Assembly: GCF_008642295.1 (NCBI RefSeq)
Contig: NZ_CP029190.1
Location: 2,204,001-2,268,000, forward strand
Reading direction: 5' to 3'
DNA length: 64,000 nt
Source of the DNA: Streptomyces venezuelae
GTDB lineage: Bacteria > Actinomycetota > Actinomycetes > Streptomycetales > Streptomycetaceae
The translations under genes and the position numbers were made by a program. The notes beneath the pieces are model-generated. The model searched no databases. It was not told the DNA's origin and worked only from the letters and a program-made list of their open reading frames with translations. This document shows positions 6,185-12,268 of this stretch, piece by piece (the first letter of the stretch is position 1; every line of letters starts with the position of its first letter).

Positions 6185-9100
6185 TCAACGGAGGCGCTGG
6201 CTGATGACCTTGGAGACCCCGTCGCCCTGCATGGATACGCCGTACAGCGCGTCGGCGACCTCCATGGTCCGCTTCTGGTGCGTGATCACGATCAGCTGTG
6301 AGCTCTCCTGGAGCTCCTCCATGATCCGGATCAGCCGCTGGAGGTTGGTGTCGTCGAGTGCCGCCTCGACCTCGTCCATCACGTAGAACGGGCTGGGCCG
6401 TGCCTTGAAGATGGACACCAGCAGGGCCACGGCGGTCAGCGAGCGCTCCCCGCCGGAGAGCAGCGACAGCCGCTTGACCTTCTTGCCCGGCGGGCGGGCC
6501 TCGACGTCCACGCCGGTGGTGAGCATGTTGTCGGGATCGGTCAGGATCAGCCGGCCCTCGCCACCGGGGAACAACCGGGAGAAGACCCCCTCGAACTCCC
6601 GGGCGGTGTCCCGGTAGGCCTCCGTGAACACCTGCTCGACGCGCTCATCGACCTCCTTCACGACCTGAAGGAGGTCGGCCCGGGTCTTCCGGAGGTCGTC
6701 GAGCTGTTCGCTCAGGAATTTATGCCGCTCCTCCAACGCGGCGAACTCCTCCAGGGCCAGCGGATTCACCTTGCCGAGCTGCTGGTACGCCCGCTCGGCC
6801 GCCTTCAGCCGCTTCTCCTGCTGCGCCCGGACGAACGGGCCGGGCCGGTTGCGGGGGTGCTCCGGGTCCTCCGGGAGCTCCTCGCCCTCGGCGGGGAGGG
6901 AGGGCGGGACCAGCTGATCGGGGCCGTACTCGGCGACCAGGGCGGCGGGCTCCACGCCGAGCTCCTCGAGCGCACGGGTCTCCAGTTGCTCGATGCGCAG
7001 CCGCTTCTCGGCGCCGAGCACCTCGCCGCGGTGCACCGAGTCGGTCAGCTTGTCGAGCTCGCCCTTGAGCTCGCGGCCACGGGTGCGGGCCGCGGTGAGT
7101 TCCTGCTCGCGCAGGCCCTTGGCGTATTCGGCGTCCTGCCGCTCGGCGTCCGCGCGCCCGAGCGACACCTCGATGTGCGTGAGGAGCTGGCGGGCGCCGT
7201 CGGCGACGGCGGCGGCCACCTCGGCCTCGTGGCGCAGCCGGGCCCGGCGCCGTTCGGCGCGGGCGCGGGCCTCGCGCTCGGCGCGGGCGGCCCGGTCCAG
7301 GCCGTCGGCCCGGCCGGCCAGGCCCTTGACCCGCTCCTCGTGGGTCCTGAGCTGGAGCCGTGCCTCCATCTCGGTCTGCCGGGCGTTGGCGCCGTCGGCG
7401 GCGAGCCGGTCCCGGACGGCGGTGTCCGGCTCCTCCTCCACCGGGAGTTCCTCGGCGACGGCGAGCCGCTCGGCGCACTCCTCGACCTCCATCAGCGCCT
7501 GGTCCAGGGCGTCCTGGGCCTTGGCCGCGGCGGTGGCGCTGCGCTCGGCCTCACCGGCCGCGCCCTTCGCCTGGCCGGCGAGCCGGCCGAGCTGCTGGGC
7601 GACCCCGGCGCGGGCCCGCTCCGCTTCCCGGCGCCGCTCGGCAAGTTCCTCGACCAGGGCGGCTGCGGCGGTCCGCCGCTGCTCCGCCGCCACCCGTACG
7701 CCGGCCAGCTCGCCGCACCGCACCTCGAGCCCGGCCAGCTCCCGGGCCGCCTCGTCGACGGCGGCCTGCACCTCGATGAGGCTGGGCACGCCGGCGGACC
7801 CGCCGTGCGCGAGGTGGGCGCCGAGGACGTCGCCGTCGTGGGTCACGGCCATGAGCTCGGGGCGCTCGGCGACCAGGGCCTCGGCGTCCTCGAGCGTGGG
7901 CACGACGAGATAGTCCCGCAACACCCACCCGACGGCCCGGCACACGGCCGCATCCCCCCGCACCAGCCCCCCGGCCCACGGCCACCCGCCCACCACGGCC
8001 AGCCCGGCGACGAAGCCGCCGGCGCCCGGCGCCTCGGCGCCGGAAGCGGCGGCAGTTTCGGCGGCGCAGCCGCCAACCTCATCGGCACCGGAAGCGGGCC
8101 CGGGGGCACAGCCGCCCACCCGCTCGGGGGCGAAGCCGCCGGCCTCGTCGGCGCCCGGCGCGCCGGCACCGTCGCGGGGCCCGGGGGCAAAGCCCCCGAC
8201 CTGCCGCACCGCCGCATCCACGGCGGCGAAGCCGCCAGCGCCCGACGCCCCGGCGCCGCCCGCGGCGGCAGACTCGGCGGCACAGCCGCCAGCTCGCTCG
8301 GTGGCGAAGCCGCCCGCCCCTTCCGGGGCAACGCCCGGCGCCCCGGTGTCGCAAGCCGGCACGGGGGCGAAGCCCCCCGCCTGGCCCGCGGCCGTGCGGG
8401 CGGTCGGTTGGGGTGGGACCGCCGGGGGGTGGGTCGGTGCGGGGACGTGGGGTGGGGTGATCAGGAGGGTGGCTCGGCCTGCGTCGGTCGTGCGGAGGTG
8501 CCGCAAGGCCAGGGACGCCGCGGCGGGCGACCCGACCGCCAGCGCGTCCGCCGCCGCGCCCAGCGCCGCCGCGACCGGGACCTCGTACCCCGGGGCCACC
8601 GACAGCCGTTCCGCCGCCGGGCCGAGGAGGCCGGCCAATCGTTCCCGCGCTGCCAGCAGCGCGCCCGTGCCGTCCTTGCGGCGCAGCCCCAGCGCGAGCG
8701 CGTCGTGCCGGGCGGAGACCGCCGCCCGGGAGCGTTCCGCCGCCGCGACCGCGTCCCGCGCCGCGCCCAGCGCCGCCTCCGCATCCGCCAGGTCCGCCCG
8801 CGCCGCCCCGTGCGCGGTGGCCGCGTCCGTGTCCCCGTCCGCCGCGCCGACCTCCGCCGCCAGCGCCTCGTACTCCTCCTGCGCTGCCGCCGCCCGGGCC
8901 TCCGCCTCGTCCCGGGCCGCCACCAGCCGCTCGATCTCCGCCTGTGCGGCCCCGGCCCGCGACCGGGCCGCGCCCAGCCGGCCCGTCAGCCGGGCCAGCC
9001 CTTCCCGCCGGTCGGCGATGGCCCGGGCCGCATCGCGGAGCCGCCGTTCCTCGTCCGCGAGGGTCCGTTCCAGGTCGGCGCGGTGCGCGACCGTGTCCTC

Positions 9101-10165
9101 CAGTGCCCGGCTCGCGGCCTCCAGCGCGGCGGTCAGTTCGGCCTCCTGCTCGCGGATCCGGGCCGCCTCCCGCTCCAGGTCCTCCGGGTCGCGGCCCCGC
9201 CGCTCCTCCTCCGCCGGGGCGGTCGCGCTCTTGACCCGGGCGTCCGCGAGCGAGACCGTGCCGCGGACCCGCTCGGCCAGCTGCGACAGCTCGTACCAGG
9301 TCTCCTGCGCCTGCCGGAGCCGCGGGGCGAGCTCCCCGACCGAGGCTTCGAGGGCGGCCTCCCGCCGCAGCGCCAGGGCCAGTTCCGCCTCCGCCGCGTC
9401 CTTCCGTTCCTTCAGCGCCGTCTCGTCCGCGATTTCCGCGTCCAGCGCGGCCCGCAGGGTGACCAGGTCGTCGGCGAGCAGCCGCAGCCGGGCGTCCCGC
9501 AGATCGGCCTGGATGACGGCGGCCCGCCGGGCCACCGCCGCCTGCCGGCCCAGCGGCTTCAGCTGCCGCCGGAGTTCCTCGGTCAGGTCCTGGACCCGCG
9601 CCAGGTTCGCCTGCATCGCGTCCAGTTTCCGCAGCGCCTTCTCCTTGCGCTTGCGGTGCTTCAGGACGCCCGCCGCCTCCTCGATGAAGGCGCGGCGCCC
9701 CATCGGATCGGCGTGCAGGACGGAGTCCAGCTGGCCCTGGCCGACGATCACGTGCATCTCGCGGCCGATACCGGAATCCGACAGCAGTTCCTGGATGTCC
9801 AGCAGCCGGCAGGTGTCCCCGTTGATCTGGTACTCGCTGCTGCCCCCGCGGAACATGATCCGCGTGATGGTGACCTCGGCGTAGTCGATCGGCAGGGCGC
9901 CGTCGGAATTGTCGATGGTCAGGGACACCTCGGCGCGGCCCAGCGGCGGGCGGCCGGTGGTGCCGGCGAAGATGACGTCCTCCATCTTCCCGCCGCGCAG
10001 CGATTTGGCGCCCTGTTCTCCCATGACCCAGGACAGCGCATCCACCACATTGGACTTGCCGGAACCGTTCGGGCCCACCACACAGGTGATTCCGGGTTCG
10101 AAGCGCAGGGTGGTGGCGGAGGCGAAGGATTTGAAGCCACGCAGGGTCAGGGCCTTGAGGTGCAC
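6185..10165 (-). CDS. smc: Chromosome segregation protein SMC with hinge expansion
   Basis: SMC is the ATPase of the SMC-ScpAB condensin that organises and segregates the chromosome. The product has 1326 residues; SMC proteins are usually about 1150-1200. The N-terminal head carries Walker A GPNGSGKSN at residue 31. Long alanine/arginine/glutamate coiled coils flank the hinge. The C-terminal head has the signature LSGGERS (about 1236) and Walker B YVMDEVEAALDD (about 1261). The excess length is largely an insert at about residues 595-720 inside the hinge, built of repeated GGFA/GGCA units (DNA 8003-8383). The frame is intact and both ATPase halves look complete. The start codon is GTG at 10165 with only a weak ribosome-binding site. 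Confidence 0.95.
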   Translation of the reverse strand: MHLKALTLRGFKSFASATTLRFEPGITCVVGPNGSGKSNVVDALSWVMGEQGAKSLRGGKMEDVIFAGTTGRPPLGRAEVSLTIDNSDGALPIDYAEVTITRIMFRGGSSEYQINGDTCRLLDIQELLSDSGIGREMHVIVGQGQLDSVLHADPMGRRAFIEEAAGVLKHRKRKEKALRKLDAMQANLARVQDLTEELRRQLKPLGRQAAVARRAAVIQADLRDARLRLLADDLVTLRAALDAEIADETALKERKDAAEAELALALRREAALEASVGELAPRLRQAQETWYELSQLAERVRGTVSLADARVKSATAPAEEERRGRDPEDLEREAARIREQEAELTAALEAASRALEDTVAHRADLERTLADEERRLRDAARAIADRREGLARLTGRLGAARSRAGAAQAEIERLVAARDEAEARAAAAQEEYEALAAEVGAADGDTDAATAHGAARADLADAEAALGAARDAVAAAERSRAAVSARHDALALGLRRKDGTGALLAARERLAGLLGPAAERLSVAPGYEVPVAAALGAAADALAVGSPAAASLALRHLRTTDAGRATLLITPPHVPAPTHPPAVPPQPTARTAAGQAGGFAPVPACDTGAPGVAPEGAGGFATERAGGCAAESAAAGGAGASGAGGFAAVDAAVRQVGGFAPGPRDGAGAPGADEAGGFAPERVGGCAPGPASGADEVGGCAAETAAASGAEAPGAGGFVAGLAVVGGWPWAGGLVRGDAAVCRAVGWVLRDYLVVPTLEDAEALVAERPELMAVTHDGDVLGAHLAHGGSAGVPSLIEVQAAVDEAARELAGLEVRCGELAGVRVAAEQRRTAAAALVEELAERRREAERARAGVAQQLGRLAGQAKGAAGEAERSATAAAKAQDALDQALMEVEECAERLAVAEELPVEEEPDTAVRDRLAADGANARQTEMEARLQLRTHEERVKGLAGRADGLDRAARAEREARARAERRRARLRHEAEVAAAVADGARQLLTHIEVSLGRADAERQDAEYAKGLREQELTAARTRGRELKGELDKLTDSVHRGEVLGAEKRLRIEQLETRALEELGVEPAALVAEYGPDQLVPPSLPAEGEELPEDPEHPRNRPGPFVRAQQEKRLKAAERAYQQLGKVNPLALEEFAALEERHKFLSEQLDDLRKTRADLLQVVKEVDERVEQVFTEAYRDTAREFEGVFSRLFPGGEGRLILTDPDNMLTTGVDVEARPPGKKVKRLSLLSGGERSLTAVALLVSIFKARPSPFYVMDEVEAALDDTNLQRLIRIMEELQESSQLIVITHQKRTMEVADALYGVSMQGDGVSKVISQRLR
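8003..8383 (-). repeat. In-frame palindromic repeat array in the smc hinge
   Basis: Nine units encode GG(F/C)(A/V) within about 125 residues. On the coding strand the cores are short self-complementary sequences such as GGCGGCTTCGCCGCC and GGGGGCTTCGCCCCC, with TGC replacing TTC in the GGCA units. Spacers of about 5-30 residues are rich in alanine, glycine and proline. The array stays in frame with smc. Confidence 0.85.
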
Positions 10166-11183: not shown

Positions 11184-11262
11184 GCGTGAACGCTATCCGG
11201 GCCGTCCCGGTCCGCGCGCATCACCCCGGGGGCTCTTTGGCGTACAGTCGCCGACCAATGAA

Positions 11263-11280
11263 CTCACCCATTTGGGTGAG
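11263..11280. promoter_or_regulatory. Perfect palindrome upstream of the CAP-domain gene
   Basis: CTCACCCATTTGGGTGAG has 8-base arms and a 2-base centre. It ends 28 bases before the chosen ATG of the secreted CAP-domain gene. The short centre suggests a dimeric DNA-binding site rather than an RNA hairpin. Confidence 0.45.
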
Positions 11281-11308
11281 TAACGGACGATCTTGGAAGG
11301 CCCCGCGG

Positions 11309-12268
11309 ATGGGACGTCACCGACTGCCCGCGCCACCGCGCGCCAAGCGCGGCACCGCCGTACGCAACAGTCTCATCGGCGTGTCCGTTGCGGCTGCCCT
11401 GGGAACGGCGGCCGTGACCACCGGGCTGGTTCCGGTCGGCAGCGCCTTCCCGTACGTCGGCGTCGACAGCGGCACCGGCCGGAGCAGCGAGGCGAAGGCC
11501 ACGCCCGAGCCGGCTCCGGTGAGCGACCTCCAGCAGCAGGGCGGGCTGGCCAACCTTCCGGGGCGCGCTCCGGCCGCCCCCGCCGACGGCGGGTCCATCT
11601 CCGCCCCGGCCCGCTCCCCCGGCTCCGCCACCTCGTCGGCCAAGCCCACTCCGTCGTCCAAGCCCACTCCGTCGTCCAAGCCCGCCCCGCCGGCCAAGCC
11701 CACCCCGTCGGCCTCGGCTCCGGTCCAGGCGAAGCCCACGCCGGCTCCGAAGCCCACCCCCTTCACCAAGGCACCGGAGAAGCAGAAGGTCGCCCCGCCG
11801 GCGGCCCCCAAGCCGGTTCCCCAGCCTCCCAAGCCGACCAAGGCCCTGCCCAAGCCCGCCCCGGCGAACCCGCCGGCCGTGGCCACCGGCCACTCCGCGG
11901 AGGAGGCCGCCGTACTCAACATGGTCAACGTGGAGCGCGCGGCGGCCGGCTGCGGCCCGGTCCGGGCGAACCCGCCGCTGGCGGCCATGGCCGCCGCCTT
12001 CAGCAAGGACATGGCGGTACGGAACTTCTTCGACCACACGGACCCCGACGGCAAGAGCCCGTGGGACCGGGCCGCCGCAGCCGGCCTCTCGGGTCTGGGC
12101 GGCGAGAACATCGCCCGCGGCCAGGGCGATGCGACGGCCGTGATGAAGGCGTGGATGAGCAGCCCCGGCCACAAGGCCAACATCCTGAACTGCGAGTTCC
12201 GCACCCTGGGCGTCGGCATGTACGACGCCGCGGGCGGCCCCTGGTGGACCCAGAACTTCGGGTTCTGA
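11309..12268 (+). CDS. Secreted CAP/SCP-domain protein
   Basis: The 319-residue product has a basic N-terminus (MGRHRLPAPPRAKRGTAVRN), a membrane/signal segment at about 23-45 and a long proline/lysine/threonine-rich linker (about 75-190) with KPTPSS repeats. A C-terminal CAP domain (about 195-319) carries FFDHTDPDGKSPWDRA, GGENIARGQG and SSPGHKANIL, the usual cavity and signature motifs. It is probably exported and may be held in the cell wall by the linker; its activity is unknown. The ATG at 11309 follows GGAAGG; an earlier in-frame start at 11186 would run through the palindrome at 11263. Confidence 0.87.
   Translation: MGRHRLPAPPRAKRGTAVRNSLIGVSVAAALGTAAVTTGLVPVGSAFPYVGVDSGTGRSSEAKATPEPAPVSDLQQQGGLANLPGRAPAAPADGGSISAPARSPGSATSSAKPTPSSKPTPSSKPAPPAKPTPSASAPVQAKPTPAPKPTPFTKAPEKQKVAPPAAPKPVPQPPKPTKALPKPAPANPPAVATGHSAEEAAVLNMVNVERAAAGCGPVRANPPLAAMAAAFSKDMAVRNFFDHTDPDGKSPWDRAAAAGLSGLGGENIARGQGDATAVMKAWMSSPGHKANILNCEFRTLGVGMYDAAGGPWWTQNFGF

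Follow-up and report, generated by a model that had tools for sequence, protein, structure and literature searches.

The SMC protein encoded in the 64,000-nucleotide stretch of the Streptomyces venezuelae chromosome analyzed here (the window) has approximately 145 extra amino acids, largely in-frame repeats, within the loop of its hinge. With a probability of roughly 80%, we attribute them to in-frame local duplication in a weakly constrained, low-complexity hinge linker, that is, to a lineage-specific expansion. The array alone is ordinary for such a linker; it is the hypervariable linker that is the object of interest.

A repeat array in the linker of the SMC hinge

The smc gene has no internal stop across its 1,326 codons, and its product scores 898.5 bits against the TIGR02168 profile, above the curated cutoff of 567.35, which places it among bacterial SMC proteins. 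Both halves of the hinge are present (Table 1). The first is matched by the Pfam SMC_hinge model, and this match ends just before the array, whereas the second half was located by alignment only. When the SMC of a short-linker relative (L040) was aligned to the solved hinges 5h69, 1gxl, and 1gxj, the linker fell between the end strand of the first half (RATFLPLD in 5h69) and FVGIASELV in the second half. It is this linker, flanked by both hinge halves, that carries the array, and the oversized SMC with nine in-frame GG(F/C)(A/V) units inside the hinge, as given in the preliminary description, is confirmed from the sequence. The region has a GC content of 82%, with repeats. Alanine, glycine, and proline make up 61% of the linker, and lysine is absent; from this composition and from the tolerance for different sequences described below, we infer that the linker is probably disordered and lies outside the dimer interface.

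Table 1. Features of smc and its hinge linker in the window
Feature	Window positions	Strand	Description
smc, bacterial chromosome segregation protein SMC	6185..10165	minus	1,326 aa; TIGR02168, Pfam SMC_N and SMC_hinge
Hinge domain, first part	8456..8635	minus	residues 511-570; Pfam SMC_hinge profile positions 2-61 of 116
Hinge domain, second part	7766..7936	minus	from residue 744, AVGWVLRDYLVV...; far end approximate; from alignment of L040 to 5h69, 1gxl, 1gxj
Hypervariable inter-subdomain hinge linker	7937..8473	minus	residues 565-743, 179 aa, as measured here
Array of nine GG(F/C)(A/V) units	8006..8377	minus	residues 597-720
Unit 1	8363..8377	minus	GGGGGCTTCGCCCCC, GGFAP
Unit 2	8300..8314	minus	GGCGGCTTCGCCACC, GGFAT, outer pair broken
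Unit 3	8276..8290	minus	GGCGGCTGTGCCGCC, GGCAA
Unit 4	8222..8236	minus	GGCGGCTTCGCCGCC, GGFAA
Unit 5	8183..8197	minus	GGGGGCTTTGCCCCC, GGFAP
Unit 6	8126..8140	minus	GGCGGCTTCGCCCCC, GGFAP, outer pair broken
Unit 7	8102..8116	minus	GGCGGCTGTGCCCCC, GGCAP, outer pair broken
Unit 8	8060..8074	minus	GGCGGCTGCGCCGCC, GGCAA
Unit 9	8006..8020	minus	GGCGGCTTCGTCGCC, GGFVA, inner pair broken
Duplicated block, copy A	8222..8290	minus	residues 626-648; a 60-base stretch is 85% identical to copy B, which lies 216 bases away
Duplicated block, copy B	8006..8074	minus	residues 698-720

The stretch 8003-8383 corresponds to SMC residues 595-721. The units start at residues 597, 618, 626, 644, 657, 676, 684, 698, and 716, so that their spacing is uneven but always in whole codons (21, 8, 18, 13, 19, 8, 14, and 18). 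Seven of the nine fit the 15-base pattern GGSGGCTKYGCCSCC. The loop codon is TTY or TGY (F or C) in all nine; in other words, every unit has the same orientation. Pairing of the outermost bases (GGG with CCC, GGC with GCC) looked suggestive, but it holds in only six of the nine units.

Near smc, at positions 11186-12268 on the plus strand, the window also encodes a secreted-looking protein that includes an extended proline/lysine repeat (KPTPSSKPTPSSKP); we take it to be a CAP-domain-like protein.

Duplicated blocks and palindromes within the array

The best pair of 60-base segments within the linker, encoding residues 626-645 and 698-717, is 85% identical, while the maximum in 300 codon permutations was 68%. 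There is also a four-copy block family with spacings of 24, 150, and 24 bases and identities of 62-79%, and duplicated in-frame blocks recur at distances of 72 and 58 codons. The copies differ from one another by substitutions. The array is therefore an in-frame local repeat array, with copies related through duplication in whole codons.

Palindromes are in excess as well. The linker contains six in-phase 15-base palindromes, whereas permuting the codons gives an expectation of 0.78 (none of 200 permutations reached six); one of the six, GCCGCCGCGGGCGGC, is not a GGFA unit. Hairpins with stems of at least 6 bases gave a weaker signal: 12 were found, against a permutation mean of 4.9 (standard deviation, 2.6; maximum, 16; 1,000 permutations), and in a second run 22 of 1,000 permutations reached 12. 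Exceptional overall folding was not found, either as RNA (z = -0.81) or as DNA (z = -1.59). Palindromes as a general driver of linker growth were rejected, with 10 found versus approximately 10.5 expected in the other 64 long linkers.

GGC (Gly) and GCC (Ala) are reverse complements of each other, and hence Gly-Gly-X-Ala-Ala in a GC-rich genome is palindromic almost for free. Judging by the codons, the palindrome of the unit is largely a consequence of GGC and GCC placed around one codon. Still, the palindrome excess, together with the F or C at all nine central codons, is compatible with constraint acting on the peptide or the DNA.

Little sign of the unit elsewhere in the genome

The genome is a single contig of 7,525,322 bases, in which GGSGGCTKYGCCSCC fits 21 places: 7 in the array and 14 elsewhere, compared with 6 for the reversed control. 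One third of all fits in the genome are thus found within approximately 370 bases of smc. The 13-base core SGCGGCTTCGCCS occurs 54 times versus 32 for its control, a mild excess. A 411-base query found, beyond itself, short matches only, the best being 82% identical over approximately 48 bases (E = 3.3e-5). On these counts and short, weak matches, we rejected a dispersed palindromic element in this genome. Like Rickettsia palindromic elements, the array lies in frame in a protein gene and is absent from the orthologues compared, but the many dispersed copies of such elements are missing here.

Had a palindrome inserted several times independently, both orientations should be represented, unlike in the nine one-way units. 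The lack of dispersal, the single orientation, and a palindrome that comes from codons are why we take the copied entity to have been the peptide-coding unit rather than a palindromic element. The preliminary description had proposed multiplied palindromic elements; the local multiplication stands, but the palindromic element as the multiplying entity is not supported.

The linker is hypervariable among Streptomyces

We collected 175 smc loci (the window, 80 named contigs, and 94 regions), of which 148 had intact frames with both ends, yielding 144 distinct proteins, 137 of them Streptomyces-type. Six of 100 other genomes of the genus (G002, G008, G017, G028, G032, and G050) were left out of this collection. 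The seven non-Streptomyces proteins have linkers of 34, 34, 37, 38, 38, 40, and, in Actinacidiphila (L082), 98 residues. The remaining 27 loci were omitted from the linker table because they had no intact frame, met a contig end, gave too short a stretch, or had a missed motif. Three of these 27 were read separately, and five entered a comparison with other actinobacteria, from which L097, L100, L105, and L112 were dropped because the motif was missed.

Across the 137 Streptomyces-type proteins, including that of the window, the linker ranges from 34 to 222 residues (median, 58; standard deviation, 45.5), whereas the part before it has 561-572 residues (standard deviation, 1.2) and the part after it 578-611 (standard deviation, 4.0). 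It exceeds 60 residues in 64 proteins and 100 residues in 40, and six linkers other than that of the window are as long as or longer than its 179 residues. An expanded loop at the hinge, previously described as unexpected, is thus shared by these 64 proteins, although with other sequences. Some Streptomyces species keep linkers of 34-41 residues. The longest linkers, in L161, L190, and L162 (368, 353, and 297 residues), are the three that were read separately, outside the 137.

Length changes rapidly. In 69 pairs of proteins at least 95% identical outside the linker, linker length differs in 86%; outside the linker, the median is 0 indel columns. On a FastTree tree of the remaining SMC sequence, the linker-length state (>60 residues) changes at least 26 times. 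The protein nearest to that of the window outside the linker (L117, 89% identity) has a linker of 119 residues with a different sequence. Other actinobacteria differ: 22 of 25 SMCs have linkers of 33-49 residues, in a set where 10 of 20 genome loci were picked for long open frames. The non-Streptomyces actinobacterial loci L270, L265, and L266 have moderately long linkers of 91, 65, and 66 residues.

Several smc loci are broken. The Streptomyces genome G012, a single contig, has smc in two pieces divided at the linker, C1:6084103-6085887 (minus strand) and C1:8644009-8646240 (plus strand), 2.56 Mb apart and in opposite orientation (the first half-locus is in L180/L282, the second in L285). One inversion with an endpoint inside the linker would produce this arrangement, but misassembly may also account for it; a strong shared repeat was not found at the junctions. 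The smc frame is broken in or near the linker in L062, between residue 404 and the linker in L195, and in the first hinge half (residues 529-553) in L137, each by sequencing error or true breakage.

Other species fill the linker with other sequences

The GGFA array is absent from the 143 other distinct linkers, a single unit being present in one (L172). A DNA search of 294 other genomes of the genus, with two candidates scored in each, returned 14 weak matches, none of which contained the 15-base unit and none of which reads as SMC by eye; with two candidates per genome, relatives carrying the array may be missed. Therefore, on the question of whether the insert is unique or recurrent, the place recurs, but neither the same sequence nor a series of GGFA copy numbers does, and Streptomyces SMCs do not all carry one and the same insert.

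In-frame internal repeats (p ≤ 0.005) were found in 26 of the 65 linkers of at least 60 residues, including that of the window, with differing sequences, and are absent from the other 39. xPGQ units, 53 in total, occur in 28 of 144 linkers; a consistent palindrome was not found in them by eye.

The linkers of 22 of the 144 distinct proteins contain, in frame and always in one orientation, a dispersed Streptomyces repeat that reads roughly RGAGNCATSH..PAD (core AGGGGCGCGGGGAACTGCGCGAC, of which a 22-base core was counted; for example, in L254-L261). The threshold for this assignment was chosen by us: three loci (L061, L151, and L169) lie close to it, and a fourth, L125 (33/45 bases, 19 genome copies), is just below. 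The core GGGGCGCGGGGAACNGCGCGAC is present in 48 of 101 genus genomes, with up to 316 exact copies, versus 0 for the reversed control. All 12 counted genomes with the repeat in the SMC linker have 24-108 exact copies. Among the 87 genomes with both kinds of data, 12 others have at least 20 copies but no repeat in the linker, and none of the 63 with fewer copies has one. Presence of the repeat in the linker changes at least seven times on the SMC tree. With copies across the genome and one in frame in a protein gene, this repeat resembles a Rickettsia palindromic element. The mechanism initially proposed for the window, with translated palindromic elements, does therefore occur, although the species are different ones and so is the repeat, of which the genome of the window has no exact copy. 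A 19-base stretch of this repeat had no match in the open-licence papers searched, and none of the titles and beginnings of abstracts listed there describes such SMC hinge inserts or Streptomyces repeats.

Selection on the linker and dispensability of smc

Six close pairs whose linkers are equally long gave a pN/pS of 0.76 in the linker versus 0.094 elsewhere; these linkers have 36-59 residues, and the pairs include neither the window species nor the array. By pair, the linker value scatters from 0.44 to 1.47, and without the pair L126/L133, whose linkers are 38% identical and hardly alignable, it is 0.70. In the smc gene of the window, GC3 is 0.87 in the linker and 0.93 and 0.95 on its two sides. 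Together, pN/pS and GC3 point to weak selection on the linker.

The gene itself, which had been called essential, is not so in S. venezuelae, where smc deletion strains are alive according to excerpts of two reports (PMC13121528, PMC8410768). The same excerpts describe defects in compaction and arm alignment upon smc deletion, and in them neither smc nor hupS mutants form anucleate spores.

Origin of the array

Under local duplication, a short GC-rich coding unit, GGC GGC TTC/TGC GCC (Gly-Gly-Phe/Cys-Ala), and its surrounding blocks would have been copied several times in place, presumably through slippage during replication or through unequal recombination. Those copies that stayed in frame would have survived because the linker tolerates widely different A/G/P-rich sequences, a tolerance seen in the comparison of relatives. 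Growth and shrinkage at this site have recurred many times in Streptomyces and involve unrelated sequences, among them, in some species, the in-frame dispersed repeat. SMC would presumably remain functional, its insert forming a disordered loop at the hinge.

Three other explanations have to be weighed against local duplication. In the first, a palindromic element, mobile or dispersed, would have inserted repeatedly in frame, as in Rickettsia, and the units would be its copies. On the one hand, other Streptomyces have captured a repeat at exactly this site, always, where counted, in genomes rich in that repeat; moreover, the units of the window are palindromic beyond chance, and the genome has somewhat more occurrences of their 13-base core than of the control. 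On the other hand, the 15-base unit is not dispersed, the 411-base search found short matches only, the repeat of the other species is lacking in this genome, and the nine units run one way, with neighboring blocks duplicated along with them. We consider such insertion quite unlikely. An artefact of assembly or sequencing is the least probable of the three, to the point of being very improbable: GC-rich repeats invite it, and both the frame change in L062 and the split smc of G012 fall in or near the linker, but the frame of the window gene is intact, its spacings are in whole codons, its copies are not identical, and many independent genomes have long linkers as well.

Selection might instead adjust the length and sequence of the linker, making it a species-specific disordered spacer that tunes hinge dimerization, DNA entry, or partner binding. 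The size of the expansion and its concentration in Streptomyces speak for this, as does the F/C codon kept throughout the array. However, related species carry unrelated linkers, pN/pS indicates weak constraint, and a long linker is not required, since some species keep short ones; we regard such tuning as unlikely. A broader idea is hardly less speculative, namely that the Streptomyces hinge linker is an evolvable spacer, in which duplication and translated dispersed repeats rebuild a large disordered loop whose size would alter hinge opening, dimerization, or the passage of obstacles on a linear, spore-compacted chromosome. Local duplication in a tolerant linker remains our preferred explanation.

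Comparison with known systems

Our results indicate that the hinge of a conserved chromosome-organizing machine can carry linkers of 34-368 residues with widely different sequences. The set of linkers is a natural length series for the sensitivity of DNA passage and dimerization at the hinge to bulk, in a genus with viable smc deletions. Dispersed repeats open in frame in a housekeeping gene also provide a case outside Rickettsia.

The Rickettsia palindromic elements (Ogata 2000 and 2002, as cited in an excerpt of PMC10969869) are repeat DNA in frame inside protein genes, and the likeness lies in palindromic or repeat DNA being read in this way. The window has one local array of a 15-base unit, whereas the Rickettsia elements, approximately 150 bp long, are a dispersed family found in unrelated genes; a closer match is the dispersed repeat that other Streptomyces have in their SMC linkers. 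In-frame intragenic tandem repeats and low-complexity regions of bacteria, as presented in excerpts of PMC2996958 and PMC6821194, share with the array repeats in codon phase that vary between species, but the array is irregularly spaced and sits in the hinge of a conserved chromosome-organizing protein. Finally, in the solved bacterial SMC hinges (5h69, 1gxl, 1gxj, 3nwc, and 4rsj), both halves can be aligned on either side of the window linker; where the window has 179 residues, the aligned solved hinges have a few tens.
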